From positions 4,588,001-4,652,000 of the forward strand of contig NZ_CP107939.1 in assembly GCF_036046055.1 (NCBI RefSeq): 64,000 nucleotides of DNA, given 5' to 3'. Source of the stretch: Nocardia sp. NBC_00403. GTDB lineage: Bacteria; Actinomycetota; Actinomycetes; Mycobacteriales; Mycobacteriaceae. The notes under the pieces were generated by a model. It made no database searches. It was not told the origin of the DNA and saw only the letters and a list, made by a program, of their open reading frames with translations. Positions 6,801 to 31,923 of this stretch are shown here, one piece after another. The stretch's first letter is position 1, and the number at the start of each line of letters is the position of its first letter. A program made the translations under genes and the position numbers.

Positions 6801-9800
6801 TCTACGCCGCGCGAAGCGGCGCTTGCCGCATTGTTCGCCGAGGTGCTCGGACTGGATGCGGTCGGCGTCGACGAGAGCTTCTTCGCGCTCGGCGGCGACA
6901 GCATCGTCTCCATCCAGTTGGTGGCCAGGGCGAAGGCCGCCGGGATTCGCATCAGCGCGCGGGATGTGTTCGAGCGCAAGACCGTTGCCGCGCTGGCGGC
7001 GGTCGCCACCGAGGTGAAGACCCACGTGGTGCACGAACTGCCGGGTGGCGGTATCGGTTCCGTAGAGTTGACGCCCGCGGCGCACGCGATATTGGACCAG
7101 GGCGATACCTGGCGTCGGCTCGGCCGTGCGGCGTTGATCGCGCTGCCCACGGGCTTCGAGCGGGCTCGGCTCGGCGCTGCTGTGCAGGCATTGATCGATC
7201 ACCACGATCTGCTGCGCTCCTCGCTGCGACGCGCGGAGCCCGGCTGGGAATGGGTTGTCGCCGAACATGGTTCGGTCAAGGCCGATACCCTGCTGCACGC
7301 GGTGTCGGCAGGTTCCGAAGATGTGGACGCGATCTGTGCACAGGAACTGCGGCGCGCCCGCGACCTGCTCGACCCGGAGAACGGTGTCGTCGCGCGCTTC
7401 GTACTGATCGAACGGGTGGACGCCGATCCACTGTGCTGGCTTGTGCTGCACCAGTTGGTGATCGATGACGCCTCCTGCCACATCCTGCTCACGGATCTGG
7501 CTACCTCGGCCGCGGGCGATCCGCTCGAACCGGTCGGAACCTCGTTCCGGCGCTGGGCGCACGGCCAGCTCGAAAACGCGGCCGAACGTGGTACTGAACT
7601 GACTGTCTGGCAACAGATCCTGTCCACACCGAACGCGCCGATCGGCTCCGGCACGCTCGATCCAGCCGAGGACATCGTGTCGACCGCCGCGAGCTTGCGG
7701 ACCGTCATCCCGCCGGACGTGGTGGCGGCCGTACTCACCACGACACCGGATCGATTCCATTGCAGCGGCCACGATGTGCTGATCGCTGGGCTCGCCATGG
7801 CGGTAAGCCGTTGGCGCGACCGGAAATCCACGATGCTGACATTGACCGGCAACGGCCGCGCGGTCGCGACCCTGCCCGGCGCTGATATCGCACGCACTGT
7901 AGGCCGGTTCGCGAGCACGTATCCGGCGGCCCTCGACCTCGACGGCATCGACCTCGACGACGCGTTCGCCGGCGGCACCGCGGCAGGCACCGCGATCAAG
8001 ACCACGAAAGAGCAGTTGCGGGCGTTGCAGGACCAGGGGGTCGGCTTCGGCATCCTGCGTTATCTGAACGCCGAGGGCATCGTCGCGCTCGCCGACGCGC
8101 CCACCCCGCAGATCACCTTTACCTATCACGACCGGACGACGTCGGTGCACGGCGAAACCTTTCCGACACAGAGCTTCTCGGCACTCATTGATGATCTCGC
8201 GCCGCTGGCCGCTGTCGTCGACATCGACGCCACCCTGACCGACACCGGCCTGGAGGTGAGCTGGGGCTATGCTTCCCGGCTGCTCGGTGCCGCCGACATC
8301 GGCGAGCTCGCCGCACTCTGGGCGGACGCATTGGGCGCAATCGCCGACCATATTCGGTCGGCGGAGGCGGGCGGCCACACGCCGTCCGACTTCGACCTCG
8401 TCCCGGTGACCCAGCCCCAGATCGACAACTGGGAGCGGACCTACCCGAACCTCACCGACGTCTGGCCGCTGTCGCCGCTGCAATACGGCATGTTCTTCCA
8501 CGCGGTGTACGACTCCGACACCGCGGACGGTTACACGGTGCAGTCACTGCTCACGCTGGCAGGTACCGTCGATGCCGCCCGATTGCGCACCGCGGCACAG
8601 ACATTGGTGGCACGGCAGGAGAACCTGCGGGTCGCGTTCGTGGAGACCGACGACGGTCCCCGCCAGCTCGTTCTCGGCGACATCGAAATCCCTTGGCAGG
8701 AAGTCGATCTGACTGGCATCGCCGACACGGAGGCACGCGGGCGCGAACTCGACCGCATGCTCGCGCTCGACGCGCGTACACGCTTCGAGCTCGCCCGTCC
8801 CCCGCTGCTGCGCTGCACGCTGATCCGGATTACGCCCGACGAATACCGTTTCGTGCTCACCAACCACCACATCGTCCTGGACGGCTGGTCCGGGCCGCTG
8901 CTGGTGCGCGAATTGCTGGCCCTGTACGTCACTTCGGGCGACGACAGCGCGCTCCCACCGGTGCACTCCTATCGCCGATTCCTGGGCTGGCTGGGTGAAC
9001 AGGATGACGCCGCGTCGATAGCGGCGTGGCGGCGATCCCTGGCCGGCATCGATACCGCGACCCGGGCGATACCGACCCTGGCCGATATCGAATCGACCGA
9101 GACCGGCACGATCTCCGTCGACCTGTCCCGCGATACGGTCACCCGATTGGAGACGGCCGCCCGCGAATCCGGCGCGACGGTCAACACCATGGTGCAGGCG
9201 GGCTGGGCGATGCTGCTGGCCATGCTCACCGGCCGCACCGATGTGGTCTTCGGCGGCACGGTCTCGGGCCGGCCGCCGGAGCTGGCCGGTGTCGAATCGA
9301 TGATCGGGCTGTTCATCAATACGCTGCCGGTGCGCGTACAACTCGATCCCACCGAGAAGGTGACCGACCTGCTCGCCCGCGTACAGTCCGAGCAGGCACG
9401 GCTGATGGACCATCAGCACGTCGGGCTGGCCGCCATCCATCAGGCCATCGGCCTCGCCGAATTGTTCGACACACTCACCGTATTCGAGTCGTTCCCGATC
9501 GACCGCGAAGCGTTGTCGCAAGCACTCGACATCGCGGGCATGCGGGTACTCGACGTCGACACCGCCGACACCACGCCATATCCGTTGAGCCTCATCGTCA
9601 TTCCGCTGCGCGGTAGTGACGGACAGGACACGCTGCGAATCACCCTGAAGTTCATGGCAGACCAGCTGGAAACTGCTGCGGCACAACTCTTCCTGAATCG
9701 CTTCGTCAGACTGCTCACGCAGCTCGCCGAGACCCCGAACGCCCAGGTTTCGCAGCTGCAGTACTGCGACGACACCGAACGCGCCGCGCTACTTCCGGTC

Positions 9801-17453: not shown

Positions 17454-20400
17454 ATGCCGTTTTCGCGAGATCATGGGGTTGTGTCGAGTGCTGTGGGCGC
17501 GACCTCCGGGCGCCGTGGGAGTCCTTCGCCGCGGCGGGTGTTCGCCGAGAGATTGGCAGCACTGTTCGATGCCGCAGGAAAACCGACCTTGCGTTCGGTG
17601 GCGAACGCGGCGTCCGCGCGGGTGGCGGCGGCCGGCGGGAACCCGGTCACGTTACAGCGAATCAGCGACTGGCGCAGCGGAAAAGCGATTCCGGCCGAGT
17701 TCGATTCGCTGGTGCCTGTGCTGCTGACGCTGATCGAGAAGGCCGCCCGGACTGGGCACACGCCAGCGCCCGAGCTGGTCAAACTGACCGCATGGCGCGC
17801 GATCTGGCGGGCCGCGCAGGCCTGGGACCCCCAGTCCGAGGCCATCTGCCCCTTTCCGGGTCTGGCCGCCTACGGACCCGAGGATCGCGAACGGTTCTTC
17901 GGAAGGGTCGAGGCTACCGCGGAATTGGTGGATCGGGTGGTCGGCCCGGCCGCAGGCATGATTGTCGTGCTGGGCGCCTCCGGGTCCGGAAAATCCTCTC
18001 TGCTGCACGCCGGTGTCATCCCCACACTCTGCGCGGACCGGGAATGGACGGTTGTCACCATGACTCCCGGTACGAGACCAGCGAAGACGCTGGCCGAACT
18101 GCTCAGCCCATCCGACGCGAACGCGGCGGAGCGCCCGGATCTCGTGGTGGTCGATCAATTCGAGGAGACCTTCACCGTCTGCCTCGATGAATCTGAGCGG
18201 GAGGACTTCTCGAGCCGTCTCGCGAAACTCGCCGCGGCACACGAAACCACCCGCACCGTGGTCATTCTCGCGGTGCGGGCCGACTTCGTCCCGCACTGCC
18301 TCACCTATCCGGTGCTGGCGGACGCGCTCAACACCCGCTGCTACGCACTCGGGCCCATGCGGGTGGAGGAACTCACCGAGGCCATCACGGGACCGGCACG
18401 CGCGGCCAGCCTGAATCTCGAGCCCGGCCTGGCCGAACTGGTCGTGACCGAGTTGTGCGGGCTGGCTGGCGGCCACCACCGGCGCAGCTACGATCCGGGC
18501 GGTCTTCCGCTGTTCTCCCATGTCATGGCCGCCACCTGGAGGCACCGGGCGGGTGCCCGGCTCACCGTGGCCGGTTACCGGAAGGCAGGCGGCGTGGCCG
18601 GATCGGTAACGGCCACCGCCGAGGAGGCGTGGCGTGGCCTGACCGCCGCCGAGCAGACCGCGGCCAAGGAACTGCTCATGGGGTTGGTCACCGTCGGCTC
18701 GGACGGCCGCGACACCAGGCGGCGCGTCCCGCGCACGGAATTGCTCACGCGGACGGTCGATCCCAACGCCGCACAGACCGCCTTGACCCGCCTGATCGAC
18801 GCGCGACTCATCACTGCGGATTCCGTCGGCGCCGCAGATGGCGAGAGCGGAGCAGCCCAAGAGATCGTCTGCTTCACGCACGAGATCGTGCTGGACGCCT
18901 GGCCTCGCCTGCGCGCCTGGATAGACGAGGGCCGCGTCGACCTCCTGGTGCGGCAGCGGGTCGAGTTGGACGCCGCTGAATGGGTTGCGGCCCAGCGAGA
19001 TCCCACACTGCTGTATCAGCCGGCGCGGCTTGCCGCCGCGGAGAAGGCGGCCGGAACGCCTACGGGCGCTGTCGGTGAGTTCCTGACGGCCGCGCAGGCG
19101 GCTCGCAGGCGCGGTCGGCGGCTGGCCGTCGCGACGCGCGTCGGGCTGGCCCTGGTGGGCGTTGTCGTGCTGGTGCTCGGCATCGCCGCCTATACCCAGA
19201 CCAGACTTTCGGAACAGGAGCACGAGAACGCCGACCTGGTTGCGATATTGGCGGAGGCAGACAGTGTGCGGAGCACGGATCCGTCTCTGTCCGCCCAGCT
19301 GGAACTGGTCGCCGACCGGATGCGTCCGGGTGACCCGGATATTCGGTCTCGCCTGCTGCGCATACAGAACCTGCCGCTGGCCGCACCCCTGCGCGGGCAT
19401 ACCGGAGCGGTGCACCAGGTGGCGTACCGGCCGGACGGACACATGCTGGCCTCGGCGGGTGAAGATGGCGCGGTGCGGCTGTGGAATGTCGCCGATATCG
19501 CCCACCCGGTGTCCTCAGGAGCGCCGCTGGACTGTGGAAAGCCAGCGACTGCAACGGCTTTCAGTCCGGACGGCACGCTACTCGGGGCGGCCTGCGGTAC
19601 CGGGATCCGGCTGTGGAACGTATCGGATCCAGCGCATCCGGATCCGCGGCCGTCGCAGGCCGCCGGAAAGGTCACCGACTTCGTGTTCGGCCCAGACGGG
19701 CGGACCCTGGCTGCGACCGACGGCACGAGCGTGACGTTGTGGAACCTCGGCAATCCCGCAGCGCCGGTACAATCCGGCCGTCCGTTGACGACCACCGATC
19801 CGGTCGCCTCGATGGCGTTCGCGCCGTCGGGCCGGCTGGCTGTCGCAGGCTCCCACACCGTGCAGATCTGGTCACTGGGGCCAGCTCCCGGGCCGCTGGG
19901 GGCGCCGATCACGGTGCCGGGCCCGGGGATTCAGGCCATGGCCCTCAGCCGGGACGGCACGACGCTCGCGGTCGGCGGCGGTGACAACGCGTTGATGGCC
20001 ACCGGTACCGCCGATGCCACTGTGACGATGTGGGACATAGCCGTTCCGGACAGGCCTGCGCAGTTCGGCAGCCCGCTCGTGGTGGACACCAAATCCGAGT
20101 TGCGCTCGCTCGCGTTCGATCCGGAGGGAAACATCCTCGCCGTGGGGGGGCGCGACAATGTCACCCTCTGGACTGTGGTCGACCGGGCCCACCCGACCCG
20201 ATTGGGGGAACCTCTGGCCGCACCGTCGCCGCCGTGCCAGGAGGCCAACGTGTTTCAGCCCTGTCGCGACAGCCCGAACACGTTGGCTTTCGCCGCTGAC
20301 GGGCACACCGTCGCCGTCGGCGCGCAGGGCGGCCTGCGGCTGTGGTCGCTGCCGCCCGCGGTGATCGGGGGCCGGATCGGCTGGTTCGCCAATAGGGCGG

Positions 20401-21425
20401 CGATCAGTGCGGTCGGCACCATGGTGACGAGCGTGGTGAACGGCCGGCTCGAACTGTGGGACATCCGCGACCGGAGATCGGTCCGCCCGCTCGCCGATCT
20501 CGGCCCCGGGCCGAGCGCTGATGGCTTCATCCCGACTCCCGCACTCAGCCTCGACGGCCGTCTGACGGTCGCTACCGCGGGCCCGAACGCCGGGCTACAA
20601 CTGTTGGATATCAGCGACCCCGTGCACATCCGGCCGCTGTACCAGTTCCCCGACGCCATCGGCGTCGGGTTCAATGGCCGGATCCTGGTGGAAGTCCTGC
20701 CGGCGTTACACGTGCGGCTGTGGGATCTGTCGGATCCGGCTCATCCGGTCGTGACCATCCCGCCCACCAAGTTCGGTACAGACCCAATCAGTGGGTCGCC
20801 GTGCTATGTGAATATTGCCGGGCACCTACTGGTGACGCTCGCGCCCGACGAGAACGCGAAGGGGGAACTGGAGTACATGATCAAGTTCTGGGATCTGACC
20901 CGCAACGGCGAAGCCCGTGAGATCCAGCGGATTCCGAGCGATCCCGCCCGGCCGTTCTACGCGTCGGTCCTCACACCCGATGGGCGCACCATGGTCACGC
21001 TGGCCGCGAATACGCTGCGCGTCTGGGATATCAGTTCCCCGGGACTGGCACGGCCGCTCGGCGATCCGATCATCGCGCACGCCTTCAATATTCAATCCGT
21101 CGATTTCAACGCAGACGCCACGCTGATGGCGACATCCAGCGCGGATTCCACGGTGCGGCTGTGGGATTTCCGTGACCGCGCCCACCCGCAGCCCATCGGG
21201 CGGAGCATCACCATGCCGAGCCGCACCACCTGGAATCTCAACCTCGATGTGGCGGCCGATCGGCTGATCGGCGTCGGCAGCGGTGTCATGAGTATCTGGG
21301 ACCTGGACGAAAACGAAACGCGGCAACGGATCTGCGATATCACCCGCGATGTGCTCACCCGCGAGGTGTGGGCGGCGCATCTGCCCCGGCTGCCTTACCA
21401 TCCACCCTGTCCGGAGGCGAGATGA
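17454..21425 (+). CDS. STAND NTPase (nSTAND1-like) with HTH, one membrane helix and WD40 repeats
   Basis: 1323 residues from ATG 17454; GTG 17481 is an alternative. Residues about 20-110 form an HTH-like region (LRSVANAASARV, LQRISDWRSGKA). The STAND ATPase follows: Walker A GASGSGKSS at about 172 and Walker B LVVVDQFEE at about 229, then a winged-helix-like region. RRRGRRLA precedes a single transmembrane helix at about 562-584. By the positive-inside rule this puts the NTPase in the cytoplasm and the remaining ~740 residues outside. That outer part is a run of WD40 repeats (SAGEDGAVRLWNV is one unit). STAND proteins are signal-dependent switches in regulation, immunity or cell death. The stop overlaps the start of a secreted protease gene. 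HTH, NTPase, membrane helix and outer propeller suggest transmembrane signalling; the signal is unknown. Confidence 0.9.
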   Translation: MPFSRDHGVVSSAVGATSGRRGSPSPRRVFAERLAALFDAAGKPTLRSVANAASARVAAAGGNPVTLQRISDWRSGKAIPAEFDSLVPVLLTLIEKAARTGHTPAPELVKLTAWRAIWRAAQAWDPQSEAICPFPGLAAYGPEDRERFFGRVEATAELVDRVVGPAAGMIVVLGASGSGKSSLLHAGVIPTLCADREWTVVTMTPGTRPAKTLAELLSPSDANAAERPDLVVVDQFEETFTVCLDESEREDFSSRLAKLAAAHETTRTVVILAVRADFVPHCLTYPVLADALNTRCYALGPMRVEELTEAITGPARAASLNLEPGLAELVVTELCGLAGGHHRRSYDPGGLPLFSHVMAATWRHRAGARLTVAGYRKAGGVAGSVTATAEEAWRGLTAAEQTAAKELLMGLVTVGSDGRDTRRRVPRTELLTRTVDPNAAQTALTRLIDARLITADSVGAADGESGAAQEIVCFTHEIVLDAWPRLRAWIDEGRVDLLVRQRVELDAAEWVAAQRDPTLLYQPARLAAAEKAAGTPTGAVGEFLTAAQAARRRGRRLAVATRVGLALVGVVVLVLGIAAYTQTRLSEQEHENADLVAILAEADSVRSTDPSLSAQLELVADRMRPGDPDIRSRLLRIQNLPLAAPLRGHTGAVHQVAYRPDGHMLASAGEDGAVRLWNVADIAHPVSSGAPLDCGKPATATAFSPDGTLLGAACGTGIRLWNVSDPAHPDPRPSQAAGKVTDFVFGPDGRTLAATDGTSVTLWNLGNPAAPVQSGRPLTTTDPVASMAFAPSGRLAVAGSHTVQIWSLGPAPGPLGAPITVPGPGIQAMALSRDGTTLAVGGGDNALMATGTADATVTMWDIAVPDRPAQFGSPLVVDTKSELRSLAFDPEGNILAVGGRDNVTLWTVVDRAHPTRLGEPLAAPSPPCQEANVFQPCRDSPNTLAFAADGHTVAVGAQGGLRLWSLPPAVIGGRIGWFANRAAISAVGTMVTSVVNGRLELWDIRDRRSVRPLADLGPGPSADGFIPTPALSLDGRLTVATAGPNAGLQLLDISDPVHIRPLYQFPDAIGVGFNGRILVEVLPALHVRLWDLSDPAHPVVTIPPTKFGTDPISGSPCYVNIAGHLLVTLAPDENAKGELEYMIKFWDLTRNGEAREIQRIPSDPARPFYASVLTPDGRTMVTLAANTLRVWDISSPGLARPLGDPIIAHAFNIQSVDFNADATLMATSSADSTVRLWDFRDRAHPQPIGRSITMPSRTTWNLNLDVAADRLIGVGSGVMSIWDLDENETRQRICDITRDVLTREVWAAHLPRLPYHPPCPEAR

Positions 21426-24745: not shown

Positions 24746-24898
24746 TCGGCTCGGTCCTCTATTGCGCGGTGAACCGGCCGATGCCCGCCGGAGGCGATCG
24801 AATTGCGGGGGGTCGGCGTGTGCCTGCGGTACTCGGAAATGGAAGTGGTAATGGTGACACCGAGTCGATATCCTGTGCATATTGTGGGGAGGCTGACC

Positions 24899-25483
24899 AT
24901 GGACTACCCGCTGCCAATACCGCATCTGAGAGCCACCGCAGACTTGGAACTCCGCCCGTGGTCGTTGTCTGCAGCAGACCTTGAGCTTGTTCAGAAAGCC
25001 TCTGCCGACGACCTGATTCCTATTACCACGGTGTCGGCGACCTTCTCGCGCGAGGACGCAACGCGGTTCGTCGAGTGCCAGTGGCAACGAGCGACCGATC
25101 GAACCGGATACCCGATGGTGATCGTCCGGCGACGAGACAACACCCCGCTGGGAAGTATCGGCCTGTGGTTGAAGGACATCGACGAAGGCCGCGCATCGCT
25201 CGGCTACTGGGTGGTCCGCTCTGCCCGCGGCCATGGCGTCGCCGCGCATGCTCTGGCGGCAATGGCTACCTGGGCGCTGGAAGAGCTGCATATCCCACGG
25301 CTCCAGCTCTATGTGGAACCTTGGAACCGCGCTTCGATCCGCACTGCGGAGAGAGCCGGTTTCGAATGCGAAGGGCTCCTCAGATCGTGGCAGAAGGTCG
25401 GCAATCGACGCCGCGACATGTTCATGTACGCGCGCCTGGCAACGGGAACCCTCGCCGAGGCGGATCGGGTTTGCGCCGGTTAG
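24899..25483 (+). CDS. GNAT N-acetyltransferase, RimJ/RimL type
   Basis: 194 residues. I place the start at ATG 24899 because GGGGAGG lies 6 bases upstream; longer in-frame starts (24803, 24854) have no such site. The fold is recognisable: N-terminal LELRPWS, central GSIGLWL and LGYWVVRSARGHGVAAHAL (acetyl-CoA pyrophosphate loop, R-x-x-G-x-G/A), then LYVEPWNRASIRTAERAGFECEG. RimJ/RimL-like enzymes acetylate N-termini or small amines. The gene is 273 bp from the P450/peptide pair on the same strand; a role in modifying that peptide is possible but unsupported beyond proximity. Confidence 0.85.
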   Translation: MDYPLPIPHLRATADLELRPWSLSAADLELVQKASADDLIPITTVSATFSREDATRFVECQWQRATDRTGYPMVIVRRRDNTPLGSIGLWLKDIDEGRASLGYWVVRSARGHGVAAHALAAMATWALEELHIPRLQLYVEPWNRASIRTAERAGFECEGLLRSWQKVGNRRRDMFMYARLATGTLAEADRVCAG

Positions 25484-25756: not shown

Positions 25757-26935
25757 ATGGGTTTTGCAGAGATGCGCCGGTTCCGGCGTGATCCGTACGG
25801 TTTCCTCGAGAATCTGCGCCGGACCAGCCCGGTAGAGGTGTTCGGGCTGCCGTGGGGCGGGTGGTGTGTCGGCGATACGGGTCTGGCGCTGACGGTGTTG
25901 AATGACCGCGCTTTCAATGCGGGGATGTCCGGGTTCTTCGGTTCTATGCTGCCCTCACGGCCTGCCCAGATCGACTTCGGCCGCGCTGCGCGCGCGATTC
26001 TGCGGACACATACGCCCGAGTATCGCGAGTCTCTGGCCGCGGCGGTGACCGAAATGCCCTCCGTCACCCGCTGGCCTTCGGCTGGGGTCGAGCTGGTGTA
26101 TCGGTGCACCGCGGACGTGTTGTTGCACCCCGATGGTTCTCCCGAGTTGCGGCAATTACTGGAGCGAAATGCACGCGTGGGTGCACTTCGCCCGGCCCTA
26201 ATGGGGCAGCGGGCGTGGGCGCAGCTGCTGCGCACCAAGTTATCCACCACGCTGACCGAGCAGATCCGGGACCGGCGCAGCGATATCGGCCACACTGCAG
26301 AAGCCGAACCGCGGGATCTGCTCGATGCCGTGATCGGTGCCTGTCCCGACGAGGTCGCCGATACAACGGTTGCGCAGCTGTATGTGCTGATGTTCCGGTC
26401 CATTGTGGGACCGCTCGGCTACTCGCTCGCGTGGTCGGTGCTCCTGGGCAGTCTCCACTCCCCGGGCTCACCATGGCCTTGGCCAGTCGACTGGGTCGTG
26501 CGTGAGGCATCGCGGCACCGGCCGGTCTCCTGGATGGTCAGCCGGCCCGTCCCCCATCCCATCGAGTTCGGGGGGATCGCCTTCCGGACTGGCGACCTGC
26601 TGTCCGTAAGCCCCTACCTGCTCCATCATGATGAACAGCACTGGACCAGGCCAGGGGCATTTCAACCTGACCGCTGGACTCGACCGAGCGCACACGGCCC
26701 ATACGTGCCCTTCAGTTCCGGCCCCTTCACCTGCGCCGGCGCCGCGGTCGCCCACGATCTGATCACCGATGCCGCCACCACCCTCATCGAGAACACCTGT
26801 CTGCGCGTGATCGGCGGCGGTGATACACGCCCGATCGTGACCAACGCCGCGATCCCCAGGCCTTTCACCCTTCGCCACACCCCTACAAACCCTGCCCATG
26901 CTCGACAGAGCCCCAGAAAGGAGGTGACACCATGA
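25757..26935 (+). CDS. Cytochrome P450, putative RiPP-crosslinking enzyme
   Basis: 392 residues; AGAGGA sits 8 bases before ATG 25757. The P450 hallmarks are ExxR as EASR (in WVVREASRHRP) and the heme loop FSSGPFTCAG with axial Cys326. The I-helix (SIVGPLGYSLAW) lacks the usual A-G-x-x-T acid-alcohol pair for oxygen activation. That pair is sometimes altered in P450s acting on carrier- or peptide-bound substrates. No ferredoxin or reductase gene is adjacent. Its last codons contain the ribosome binding site for a 23-codon gene, and its TGA overlaps that gene's ATG. This coupling and the aromatic residues in the peptide suggest the P450 modifies it, as P450s do in biarylitide, cittilin and tryptorubin pathways. 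This is inference; the enzyme could act on something else. Confidence 0.85.
   Translation: MGFAEMRRFRRDPYGFLENLRRTSPVEVFGLPWGGWCVGDTGLALTVLNDRAFNAGMSGFFGSMLPSRPAQIDFGRAARAILRTHTPEYRESLAAAVTEMPSVTRWPSAGVELVYRCTADVLLHPDGSPELRQLLERNARVGALRPALMGQRAWAQLLRTKLSTTLTEQIRDRRSDIGHTAEAEPRDLLDAVIGACPDEVADTTVAQLYVLMFRSIVGPLGYSLAWSVLLGSLHSPGSPWPWPVDWVVREASRHRPVSWMVSRPVPHPIEFGGIAFRTGDLLSVSPYLLHHDEQHWTRPGAFQPDRWTRPSAHGPYVPFSSGPFTCAGAAVAHDLITDAATTLIENTCLRVIGGGDTRPIVTNAAIPRPFTLRHTPTNPAHARQSPRKEVTP
26917..26927 (+). promoter_or_regulatory. Near-consensus ribosome binding site for the 23-codon gene
   Basis: AAAGGAGGTGA is an almost complete anti-16S match, 7 bases (from the GGAGG core) ahead of ATG 26932. It lies within the last codons of the P450 gene and is the strongest such site I noticed in the window. 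It argues that the tiny gene is translated. Confidence 0.85.
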
Positions 26936-27003
26936 TCAAGGCATTGCTGTTCATCATCACCAACAAGCCGACCCGCTCCTGGAACCCCGCTGAATACGGA
27001 TGA
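26932..27003 (+). CDS. 23-residue peptide, candidate P450-modified RiPP precursor
   Basis: An open frame of 23 codons plus TGA. It begins MIKALLFIITNKPTR (a short amphipathic, basic leader-like part) and ends SWNPAEYG. The only aromatics in the last eight residues are Trp17 and Tyr22, spaced W-N-P-A-E-Y, a suitable pair for a P450 biaryl or C-N crosslink closing a small ring. The start overlaps the P450 stop (ATGA, 26932-26935) under an excellent ribosome binding site, and a hairpin follows closely. Tiny precursors next to a single P450 are known in the biarylitide, cittilin and atropopeptide families. I do not recognise this core as one of theirs, and precursor-after-P450 order is less usual. 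It could alternatively be a regulatory leader or a stability peptide. Confidence 0.7.
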   Translation: MIKALLFIITNKPTRSWNPAEYG

Positions 27004-27013
27004 TCCTGCTACC

Positions 27014-27062
27014 GGCTGGATGGCTCGAACACCGCGCACAAAGGTGTACGAGCCACCCAGCC
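27014..27062 (+). terminator. Strong hairpin after the P450/peptide operon
   Basis: The arms are 27014-27027 and 27049-27062 (13 of 14 pairs), extended inwards by ACACC/GGTGT (27029-27033 and 27043-27047). It begins 10 bp after the peptide stop. There is no U-tract, as often in high-GC actinobacteria, so it may be a terminator or a 3' stabilising structure for the short transcript. Confidence 0.65.
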
Positions 27063-27063
27063 G

Positions 27064-27900
27064 CCGCGATCTATCGGTAGCAGCAGTCCGAGGGTCGACT
27101 CACGGTGATTCTTGGGCCGGTCTACGGCAGGCGCAGAACCGAACAGTGCATCAGCGTGGGGTTATGGGTCGATCCTCCTACCGTATCGGCCGAGTCCGAG
27201 GGCCAGGTCAGGAACCGGGTTCGTCTCTCCGCCATCTTGCCGAGAGCTTGCCGAGACAGGCACGTACGGGCTGGACGGTGCGGTGCGACGAGGACGGGGT
27301 ACGACTCTGACCTGGACTGGATGGACGGGAGCCCACCCGCTGGAAAGTCCTTGCGACACTGTCAGTGTGGGGGTCAGGGCTGGCAGATATGCCGAGCCTG
27401 ACCTGCTTACATGGCCATCAACATGTTTCGACACGTTTTGAATCACATGTGTCAACTCCGGTCCGAACGTGACCCGTATCTTCCGGGTCAATCGGGACCC
27501 GGCCGCCTACGTGGACGTTCGGAAATGCCGAGTTGAGCGCGGTGTGACGCTCACTCATGGCGCGGCCGCTACATCGATAGTTGATCCAGCCACTGCTGGT
27601 TCAACGGATTCTTGAAAACGAGATCGACTGCCCCGGTCAGGGGGGCTCAGGCAGATGACCACTTCCGGCAGTTCCCAGGCGGTCTCGATTACGGGATCGG
27701 TTGTCTGCCGCGTCGGCGAGCCGAGTTCAGCAGTGAGGCTGTCGCACAATGTTGAAACGGCATGGTTCATCGGGTCCGGGTCCGGGGCCGACGTCGCTCG
27801 ACGCTCGGGGCGGTTGGTTTGCCCGTACTCCCACGGTCTCGCTCAGTGGTGTGTTCCGTGGTCGGCACGGATGTGACCGTGCCGGCCCGTGTCTAGCGTT
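27064..27900. other. Non-coding stretch, about 840 bp
   Basis: No gene I can support. Short open frames here have neither ribosome binding sites nor recognisable motifs. A 71-codon minus-strand frame at 27555-27770 is the most protein-like, but it has no start signal. Confidence 0.4.
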
Positions 27901-29064: not shown

Positions 29065-29219
29065 CCGCGTTCTCTTGCCTAATGGCCCCCCAGGACGGCG
29101 CGGCGCATGCCGCAGCCGTCCCGGACACGGCGATGGTCCCGGTGTAGGAAGTGGGAGCGGCTCTCGGAGCCGGACGGGCCGGATCCGCGGTGAGCCGGTA
29201 CAACAACAGGAGAAAGATC

Positions 29220-29654
29220 ATGAAGTTTCGGACCCACGTCGAGCCACCCGAGCCCATGCGGGGCCTGGAAGTTCCTCGCGAGGTGGTAGCAGCGCTCGGC
29301 GAGGGCGCGCGGCCGCCAGTGACGATCACGATCAACGGGCATTCCTGGAAGAGCCGGGTCGCCCTCATGCGCGGCCGCTACCTGCTCGGCCTCAGCAACG
29401 CCAACCGGCAGGCCGCCGGTGTCGCGATCGGCGACGAGGTCGAGGTCGAGGTCGAGGTCGACACCCAGCCGCGCGTCGTCGTCGAGCCCCCGGACTTCGC
29501 CCGCGCCCTGGACGACGACCCCGTCGCCCGCGCCGCCTACGACAACCTTGCCTATAGCCGCAAGCGCGAGCACGTGCACGCCATCGAGAGTGCGAAGAAG
29601 CCCGACACGCGCCGACGGCGCATCGAGAAGGCTATCGCCACCCTGCGGGGCTGA
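29220..29654 (+). CDS. YdeI/OmpD-associated (OmdA) protein with DUF1905-like domain
   Basis: 144 residues from ATG 29220, with AGGAGA 5 bases upstream. The N-terminal barrel-like part (FRTHVEPPEPMRGLEVP, then GLSNANRQAAG) fits DUF1905. The C-terminal helical part (PVARAAYDNLAYSRKREHVHAIESAKK, ending RRRRIEKAIATLR) is the OmdA-type domain. In enterobacteria, YdeI/OmdA relatives protect against cationic peptides or bacteriocins, but the function in actinobacteria is not established. The coding sequence contains a fourfold GAGGTC tandem (29438-29463) encoding EVEVEVEV. Confidence 0.8.
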   Translation: MKFRTHVEPPEPMRGLEVPREVVAALGEGARPPVTITINGHSWKSRVALMRGRYLLGLSNANRQAAGVAIGDEVEVEVEVDTQPRVVVEPPDFARALDDDPVARAAYDNLAYSRKREHVHAIESAKKPDTRRRRIEKAIATLRG

Positions 29655-29793: not shown

Positions 29794-30361
29794 TCAACCT
29801 CGAACCACGAGACACAAACGCACTGTCATGCCGCCTATCGCGCGTTTAGTCAGTCGTTGGTCTCGGGGCTCTTCCTGCAGTTTTCCGGCCTGATGTGACT
29901 CGGCCAGACGGGCGACCCATTCGGCGGCGGTCGCGAATGCCACGCGGTGCCCCGCTTGGCAAGCGCGGATGCTGAGCCCTATCGACAGGTCTGTCTTGCC
30001 GGTTCCGGGTGGGCCGAGGAAGACGACATTGTCGCGGGCGGTGATGAAGTCCAGGGTCCCGAGGTGGGTGATGGCGTTACGTTTGAGTGAGCGTTGGTGG
30101 TCGAAGTCGAACTCCTCGAGGGACTTCCGTGACGGGAAGCGGGCGGCGCGGATGCGGCCCTCACTGCCGTGGGCTTCGCGGGCAGCTACCTCGCTGCAGG
30201 CACGCGGCGAGGAACTCCTCGTGAGTCCAGCCTTCCGAGCGAGCACGCTCGGCGAGCCGGTCGACCGCGCCGGCAAGGGTGGGTGCTTTGAGAGCTCTTG
30301 CCAGATAGGCGATTTCAGAACTTACATTACGGGCACCGTTAGCGGAGGACTTGGTGGTCAT
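29794..30361 (-). pseudogene. IS21-family IstB ATPase, broken
   Basis: Starts MTTKSSANGAR at ATG 30361, overlapping the IstA stop as in intact IS21 elements. The frame is lost around 30200 and resumes in another frame with FDFDHQRSLKRN, NVVFLGPPGTGKT (Walker A) and AFATAAEWVARLAE. It then breaks off after KLQEE without the Walker B and C-terminal parts. At least one frameshift and a 3' truncation make it non-functional. Confidence 0.85.
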
Positions 30362-31325
30362 CTGGCGATCCCTTCGCTGTCGAGGTCGAACATCCGGTCG
30401 TAATCGGTGAGATCGCGGTGCTCGCCCGACGTGTCGACCACCTGGACGGCCGCCAGATGGCGAGACCGCCGCATCTGGGCAGCCGCGGCGACGTGGACGG
30501 GATCGCTGATGGTCTGATGCCGGGCCCAGCACCGTTCGTGACGACCGACTTCGGCGCCACCGCAGCTGAACACCACCCGATGAAGGTCGGCGCGCACATC
30601 GACGGTGCGGCCGATCACCGACGGATGCACCGGATAATCGTTGGAGTCCAAACGCACGTAATGGTCGCGAGGCAGCCGCGTCGATATCCGCCACCCAACG
30701 ACCGGGTCGACCGGCGGCAGTTCGAGCATCGCGGCTCGATCGTCAGACCAACGATCGACAGGTCGACAGCCCAACCGCCGATGCTGGCGCTGGTTGACCC
30801 GGTCAAGCCGCTCGGCGAGCTGGGTATTGAATCATCAGGGCCAGTGAAGCTTCGACCGGGAAGGAACGAGGTCTCGAGGTAGCCGTTCGCGGGTTCGACG
30901 AGCCCTTTGGCTTCAGGATCGCCGGGACGGCATTGGATTATCTGATGCCGAGGGTTCCTCTGAAGGCGTTCATCTCGTCGGTCAGCTGGGGTCTACGGCC
31001 GCGTCATTGTCGGACTGCGGATTCGTTGTCCCACACCGGCGCTCGCGGCACTCGATCCCATTGCCAGATCAACGCCCAATGCGCAGCCAGCAGATCCGGG
31101 CTTTGCCGAGTCGGGAGCATCACCGCGGCGACTACCCGCGAATACCCACTCACCATGACCAGCACCGGTGGTCGGCCGACATGACCGAACCCCAGCGGGA
31201 TATCAGCTCGCGGGAACCACAAGTCGCACTGAGCGAGCTCACCAGCCTGATACTCGGTGCGCGAGGCCGGGTCCGGTGGCTTGAACAACGGCCGCAGCTG
31301 CTGCACCCGTTCGAAGAACTGATAG
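30358..31325 (-). pseudogene. IS21-family IstA transposase, broken
   Basis: Pieces in different minus-strand frames assemble into an IstA. The first piece has FFERVQQLRPLFKPP, AQCDLWFPRADIPL (first catalytic Asp) and APVWDNESAV (second Asp). After stops and frameshifts around 30800-31000 the C-terminal piece has RLPRDHYVRLDSNDYPVHPS and RCWARHQTISDP. The N-terminal HTH part is missing. IstA and IstB are in the right order and overlap, so this was a complete IS21 element before decay. Confidence 0.85.
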
Positions 31326-31379
31326 GCCTGCCGTTCTTGGCGTACGGGTTGGTCTTGTCGCGCAGGGGAATTCGCGACG

Positions 31380-31527
31380 TTGCATGCGATTGCAGCGCCT
31401 GTATCAGGGTCGGTGACACAGGCTGCCACCGTGTGCTGCAGCCCTTTTCCCGCAGCAGGATCAGGCACTGGGCAGGATCGAGATCGGTGACCCGCAGGGC
31501 GAGAAGCCCGCCACGGCGGCAGGCCAA
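31380..31527 (-). pseudogene. Tyrosine recombinase catalytic-domain fragment
   Basis: Encodes CRRGGLLALRVTDLDPAQC, then LREKGCSTRWQPVSPTLIQAL. This is the box I region of actinobacterial tyrosine recombinases, with the first catalytic Arg in RRGG, and the K-beta loop (R-E-K-G). It is fused by rearrangement to the IS21 remains and has no start or active-site Tyr. Confidence 0.65.
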
Positions 31528-31531
31528 TACT

Positions 31532-31708
31532 TCGGCGCGCCTGCGCGGGCACCCGAACGGCGCCGCCCGGGGCGACTTTCAGCCGCGTCCCGCCGACCGG
31601 GCCGATCACCACCATGCCCGCACGGATCCGCCACGTGAGCTCGGTTTCGGGCACCCAACCCAAACGCGACAACAGGTCCGTGACGAACACCCGGCCGTTG
31701 ACATCCAT
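31532..31708 (-). pseudogene. AbrB/SpoVT-type DNA-binding protein fragment
   Basis: From ATG 31708 the minus strand reads MDVNGRVFVTDLLSRLGW, then TRLKVAPGGAVRVPAQARR. This has the two-part layout of actinobacterial AbrB-like proteins that usually sit beside integrase genes (D-x-x-G-R, then V-R-V-P-A-x-x-R). The frame runs into the recombinase fragment instead of finishing its swapped-hairpin barrel. Confidence 0.45.
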
Positions 31709-31923
31709 GCGCCGGATGCCGCACAGCCACTTGGGCTCCCGGCGGGGGCCGCCCGGAACAGTTCGGTGATCGGACGCTCGTCTGCGAGACCGGACAACGG
31801 ACGGCCCGGAGTCGGGACGGCGACCGGTAGAACAGGTGTCGGAAAAACAGGTGTCATCGCATCCGTCCACTTCCCGTGCCGTCACGCCGTAACAGCACAT
31901 CTACAGAGGCGAATTCGCTGCTA

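Follow-up and report, generated by a model that had tools for sequence, protein, structure and literature searches.

The closest described counterparts of the gene pair considered here are the Trp-x-Trp P450 RiPPs of Amycolatopsis xylanica, Streptoalloteichus hindustanus and Streptomyces spectabilis, which are treated in PMC11002830 with citation of Hu 2023 and Liu 2024. According to the accessible part of that paper, the P450s of A. xylanica (WP_218134608.1) and S. hindustanus (SHF91911.1) join C3 of Trp(i) to N1 of Trp(i+2), and the same P450s close Trp C2 onto a backbone nitrogen. The present analysis concerns a stretch of 64,000 nucleotides from Nocardia sp. NBC_00403 (positions 4,588,001 to 4,652,000 of NZ_CP107939.1, a single 8.7-Mb contig), which is referred to as the window. 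It harbors a P450 gene that overlaps a 23-codon gene. As a kind, such a P450/peptide pair is already published; the part for which no description was found in the literature searched is a long W-x4-Y core, with a different and larger proposed ring. Sequence comparison indicates, with a probability of roughly 85%, that the overlapping genes constitute a minimal ribosomal-peptide pathway.

The P450, the proposed peptide crosslinking enzyme, is encoded by an ORF with an ATG start at 25757..26935 (+ strand) and has 392 residues. Its Pfam p450 match (E 1.7e-19) covers only the C-terminal part, residues 245-362, indicating that the N-terminal half is divergent. The first-pass annotation, made from the letters alone, had pointed to the heme motif FSSGPFTCAG and to an unusual I-helix. 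Both are correct. The heme loop is canonical, C326 as well as E250 and R253 of the ExxR motif show no variation in 72 aligned P450 relatives, and the presumed I-helix stretch, LYVLMFRSIVGPLGYSLAWS, lacks A-G-x-x-T. In the PDB, the best sequence relative, and the only one of full length, is 9ulw_A, a P450 of 376 residues (E 1.4e-40 for a search with the family profile, 2.5e-26 for one with the single sequence); no paper naming this PDB code was found in the literature searched. The genomes of 198 relatives contain same-genus orthologues at 84-91% identity (12), 62% (1) and ~58% (3), and one relative from another genus, at 51%. The same-genus orthologues occur in 16 of 117 genomes, the window's own not counted. 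When 85,000 species genomes were scanned, the nearest named relatives proved to be Nocardia species.

The 23-codon gene (26932..27003, + strand) encodes MIKALLFIITNKPTRSWNPAEYG. Its Shine-Dalgarno region, AAAGGAGGTGA, is embedded in the P450 gene near its 3' end (26917..26927, + strand), with GGAGG at 26920-26924 within the P450 frame and 7 bases ahead of the precursor ATG, which overlaps the P450 TGA as ATGA. This arrangement had been read from the sequence at first pass, as had the observation that Trp17 and Tyr22 are the sole aromatic residues of the peptide tail, and both readings are borne out. The span then assigned to the pair, 25757..27062, rightly takes in both genes, but its end lies past the ORF, which stops at 27003, in a hairpin-forming stretch. 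Residues ~1-15 would form the leader and residues ~16-23 the core of the precursor; if the core is SWNPAEYG, Trp is its second residue.

The short ORF is a real gene, as seen from its conservation beside homologous P450s. The scan of 85,000 species genomes yielded 78 loci, which were divided by match identity and length, before ORF inspection, into the window's family (43 loci, L031-L073) and other P450 loci (L074-L108). These 35 others, together with two further sets of 12, make up 59 loci used for comparison. The same rule was applied to all: a ribosome site at the P450 end, a start 9-18 bases later and an ORF of 12-45 codons. A Shine-Dalgarno sequence at the P450 end followed by such an ORF was found in 43 of 43 named family loci, and in 42 of these the product contains P-x-x-x-W. 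By comparison, only one of the 59 other loci has a Shine-Dalgarno sequence with a short ORF, and none has PxxxW. L104, one of the 35 others, contains a full-length distant relative of the P450 (31%) and lacks such an ORF. Relative to the P450 stop, the start of the ORF falls in the range from -73 to +44 bases in 42 of the 43 loci, the other being L055 (+163), in which the P450 frame is broken; exact ATGA or GTGA overlap occurs in 10 named family loci. In a separate survey, 12 of 392 Streptomyces genomes proved to contain the family, and all 11 further Streptomyces loci that were read (L140-L149, L156) contain an ORF with PxxxW. NCBIfam gave no match to any of the 25 precursors, of 34 aligned, that were long enough for the scan.

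Substitution patterns among close relatives also point to a functional peptide. Aligned over 69 bases, the 15 close Nocardia copies, which represent 12 distinct DNA sequences, show zero indels and have a pN/pS of 0.31 over the 23 codons, indicating purifying selection. Third codon positions are variable at 10 of 23 sites, compared to 8 of 46 first and second positions, a difference that is weak by itself (Fisher p 0.04). Trp17, Pro19, Ala20, Tyr22 and Gly23 are fixed in these copies, and residues 16, 18 and 21 vary. The first-pass annotation had proposed a P450-modified ribosomal peptide; the conserved downstream gene and the selection on its codons strongly support that proposal.

Of the 44 family precursors, 34 were aligned, omitting the near-duplicates L033, L034, L036, L037, L040, L062, L063, L064 and L066, plus L070. 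Only Pro13 and Trp17 are invariant. The consensus is MxAALRRIFTNKPAR-x-W, with a leader motif of R/F-I-x-T-N-K-P-x-R. A Trp or Tyr follows Trp17 in all 42 named precursors with PxxxW, and its position defines two core types. Short cores have W at +2 (WYWY, WNW, WDW, WKW, WFWV, WIWH), and long cores have W or Y at +5, +6 or +7 (WNPAEYG, WEPDVWL, WDPPVWL, WNPKEHW, WNINHTW, WSSSGSDWE, WFGTGLNWYYGG). The window precursor belongs to the long-core branch with W-x4-Y, and its branch relatives range from W-x4 to W-x6-W. Two precursors depart from these patterns and weigh against the proposed pathway. L149 (MISTLRRIFRSSPSNSWFRAS) keeps the Trp without a later W or Y. In L070 (Nocardia transvalensis, 7160-7267; 61% identity) the P450, ribosome site and start are kept and the Trp motif is lost from the peptide, which indicates either decay in progress or a different product.

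The short-core branch is almost surely the published Trp-x-Trp family. In S. hindustanus, the sole convincing W-x-W peptide at a P450, among 30 of 31 P450 matches, is MTAMLRRIFSTKPSRRWDW; in A. xylanica, where the loci covered 30 of 68 matches and the profile hits, the corresponding peptide is MLRRIFGTKPALRWNW. Both belong to the window's family, and it is on this basis that the branch is equated with the published one; the two loci, L060 and L065, are tied to it by species and core pattern rather than by accession. Two other ORFs were set aside as unlikely: a 9-codon ORF, MSLTEKWRW, at L203, which is located at the locus edge and has a weak ribosome site, and an ORF ending in RRWCW at L223/L133, which is on the opposite strand. 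The P450s of L060 and L065 are 52% and 49% identical to that of the window. The leader motif is shared, taking the form xRRIFxxKPxxRW in L060 and L065, and in each case the precursor follows the P450 with a ribosome site at the P450 end. The cores differ, however, being W-D-W and W-N-W with the partner at i+2, whereas the window has W-N-P-A-E-Y with Tyr at i+5, and P450 positions 218, 222, 298, 320 and 363 set the branches apart. No described product of the long-core branch was found in the literature searched, the mining tables of the primary papers being outside its scope. The suspicion raised at first pass, that the pair is an undescribed subtype, therefore holds only in part: the W-x4-Y core has no description that was found, but the precursor-after-P450 order is not distinctive, since all short-core members seen here have it.

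That order is widespread among P450s in this region of the tree, as shown by a sister P450 family (L112 from Amycolatopsis xylanica and L150-L155 from Streptomyces). All 7 sister loci that were inspected have the precursor directly after the P450, preceded by a ribosome site of the same kind. The precursor itself is of another type, e.g., MRALYLKTKSVLNVRRTYGQFWYLYHHI, and the L112 P450 is only ~30% identical to that of the window. Six of the seven sister precursors end in a stretch that contains W or Y and at least three aromatics (e.g., FWYLYHHI, RWYYYHHI), and L150 ends in QAWRIW. The L112 locus continues with a second P450 gene (405 aa). A phylum-level search of 396 genomes with the L112 P450 returned only the window's own P450 and two C-terminal matches. 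In L157, tandem short ORFs with aromatic tails, MSWLTSSLRALSGEMRARWHGYFVGYGQQD and MSWIIKSLRGLSGEARTRRHGYGDRYGHNA, are located ~240-380 bases before a distant P450 match, and L166 is similar; these are perhaps another P450/peptide system.

The core type co-segregates with the P450 clade. Of the 43 rows of the P450 tree, 41 are named loci and the other two are the window and L112; L055, with its broken P450 frame, and L072, which matches over 150 residues, were omitted. Over the 41 scored rows, only two changes between short and long core are needed. One defines a short-core clade of 15 rows (support 90/98). The other is L068, which falls inside a 12-row long-core group with support of only 88/91. 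Positions 218 and 222, two of the five that separate the core types, lie in the presumed I-helix, and position 320 is in the heme loop. An acidic residue is present at position 363 in 16 of 16 P450s with short cores versus 1 of 25 with long cores, and at position 298 in 11 of 16 versus none of 25. Within the precursors, Arg directly precedes Trp in 14 of 16 short cores and in none of the 25 long cores. The L068 P450 has the acidic pair and retains Tyr222 and Ser320. With no more than two independent events behind it, and a pair test that is unable to attain significance, this covariation is only suggestive of a core type that tracks the P450 clade.

Trp17 is the sole invariant residue of the core, and in the published branch the equivalent Trp is an electrophile that takes two bonds. 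The simplest reading of both facts is that all members of the family activate this Trp. The branches would then differ in the partner, with short cores using Trp at i+2 and long cores a Trp or a Tyr between i+5 and i+7, although a long-core ring could involve another residue. For the window, Trp17 and Tyr22 would be joined in a ring containing a Pro turn, W-N/D-P-A-x-Y, with a net loss of two hydrogens. We consider this crosslink somewhat better than an even prospect.

It is also conceivable that the P450 modifies Trp17 alone or its immediate surroundings, by hydroxylation, by forming only a pyrroloindoline, or by a bond to Asn18 or Pro19, and that Tyr22 is a follower residue used for binding. 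The invariance of Trp17 and no other core residue is as expected from such a reaction, as is the precursor of L149. The short-core products described in the accessible part of PMC11002830 include a bond from Trp C2 to a backbone nitrogen, and the rings that such P450s usually make, among them those of biarylitides and cittilins, span three or four residues and so are smaller than W-x4-Y (PMC13192836, as far as the accessible text goes). However, a later W or Y accompanies Trp17 in every named PxxxW precursor, and Tyr22 is fixed in the window clade while residues 16, 18 and 21 are free to change. Modification restricted to Trp17 is therefore regarded as unlikely, and the crosslink to Tyr22 remains the preferred product.

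The gene neighborhood adds one candidate component. A GNAT acetyltransferase (Acetyltransf_3, Pfam E 6e-24) is encoded upstream at 24803..25483 (+ strand) and is a candidate third cassette gene in the close Nocardia clade. Within 128 Nocardia genomes, all nine GNAT homologues of at least 84% identity adjoin this P450, and the next-best GNATs (62-65%) are in other genomes. The 13 genomes with a close P450 contain the GNAT whole in nine and as a 57-aa remnant in one, and there is none upstream in three (L011, within 1.5 kb upstream; L039 and L040, within 6-kb flanks). The GNAT would likely serve in tailoring or self-protection. Among the genes within ~6 kb of 44 loci, it is the only neighbor common to many, and only in the close Nocardia clade, suggesting that the P450/precursor pair moves as a unit. 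The same search revealed no conserved protease or exporter gene beside the pair. Directly 3' of the precursor, a strong hairpin is predicted at 27001..27095 (+ strand; MFE -46.2 kcal/mol) that may be a transcription terminator. Its z-score is -4.6 versus dinucleotide shuffles, and 33 of the 44 loci have a hairpin with z below -2 versus plain mononucleotide shuffles. The precursor is thus probably the last gene of the operon.

A tiny ORF with a hairpin at its end and without a conserved protease or exporter gene alongside might instead be a translational regulator or some other leader that is not a P450 substrate. Yet the ORF is located after the P450, not before it, and is the last gene ahead of the hairpin. 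Its amino acids are conserved across genera even though its spacing from the P450 stop varies, and its core type follows the P450 clade. Moreover, the short-core relatives have described products (PMC11002830, accessible part). A regulatory role is therefore very improbable, and the short ORF is best regarded as the precursor of a P450-modified peptide. Elsewhere in the window are a gene whose 1323-aa product combines an nSTAND1 NTPase domain with WD40 repeats (17454-21425, + strand), a gene for a protein of the OmdA/YdeI type, to which annotation assigns bacteriocin protection (29151-29654, + strand), and remnants of an IS21-type element, comprising an IstB ATPase piece and a weak integrase-core match (29794-31900, - strand), 3-5 kb downstream of the pair.

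The pair has three features of the cyptide superfamily, of which Nam 2023 reportedly mined 19 groups: a co-conserved P450 and short gene, a heme Cys with ExxR, and conserved core aromatics. Cittilins contain Tyr-Tyr crosslinks in a Tyr-rich core, and assignment to this family was rejected because the window tail has a single Tyr and the core has no Tyr pair. In the cyptides roseovertin, rubrin and lapparbin, a P450 crosslinks Trp to an aromatic partner within a short precursor, as proposed for the window, and in rubrin Trp C7 is joined to Tyr; however, the partner is at i+3 in roseovertin and rubrin and at i+2 in lapparbin, rather than i+5 (accessible parts of PMC11002830 and PMC12299652). Biarylitides have five-residue precursors (PMC13417212, accessible part), and this assignment was rejected because the window gene has 23 codons rather than the 18 bp that encode such a precursor. 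The atropopeptides tryptorubin, scabrirubin and varsorubin share with the window a minimal two-gene layout and, given the presumed core boundary, a Trp near the start of the core, but they are defined by a KSLK leader together with the class P450 (PMC11450843, accessible part). SvaA/SvaB and ScaA/ScaB were recovered as positive controls; KSLK was found in SvaA and ScaA and is absent from the window and family precursors. With the P450s SvaB and ScaB, the family profile gives no more than partial matches (E 3.9e-7 and 3.0e-9), indicating remote similarity, and in both control loci the precursor is before the P450 gene, unlike in the window. Atropopeptide membership was rejected for the lack of KSLK and the partial P450 matches. 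That the pair is an atropopeptide, biarylitide or cittilin can hardly be right.

Taken as a minimal pathway, the locus would operate as follows. A single mRNA would yield the P450 and the precursor by coupled translation, through the ribosome site within the P450 gene and the ATGA overlap. The leader would anchor the peptide in the P450 and thereby bring the invariant Trp17 to the heme, and the P450 would remove two hydrogens and join Trp17 to Tyr22, forming the six-residue ring W-N-P-A-E-Y. By analogy with the short cores, the attacked Trp might also form a ring from C2 to a backbone nitrogen, leaving C3 to bond with the second residue; such a pyrroloindoline at Trp17 is plausible but more doubtful than not. 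A protease encoded outside the cluster would cut off the leader, and acetylation of the product by the neighboring GNAT may follow in most of the close Nocardia copies. A broader proposal, which falls just short of an even chance, is that the long-core branch forms macrocycles of six to eight residues, from Trp to Tyr or Trp at i+5, i+6 or i+7, beyond the three- and four-residue rings described in the literature searched, with size and partner set by positions 218, 222, 298, 320 and 363, and with the close Nocardia product acetylated by the GNAT.

The family extends over Nocardia, Streptomyces, Embleya, Kitasatospora, Saccharothrix, Actinosynnema and Amycolatopsis, in gene pairs that are short, mobile and missed by routine annotation. 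If long-core rings do form across four to six residues, they would widen the known range of P450 action on ribosomal peptides. One protein family would then span substrates from W-x-W to W-x6-W, providing a natural series for the determinants of ring size.
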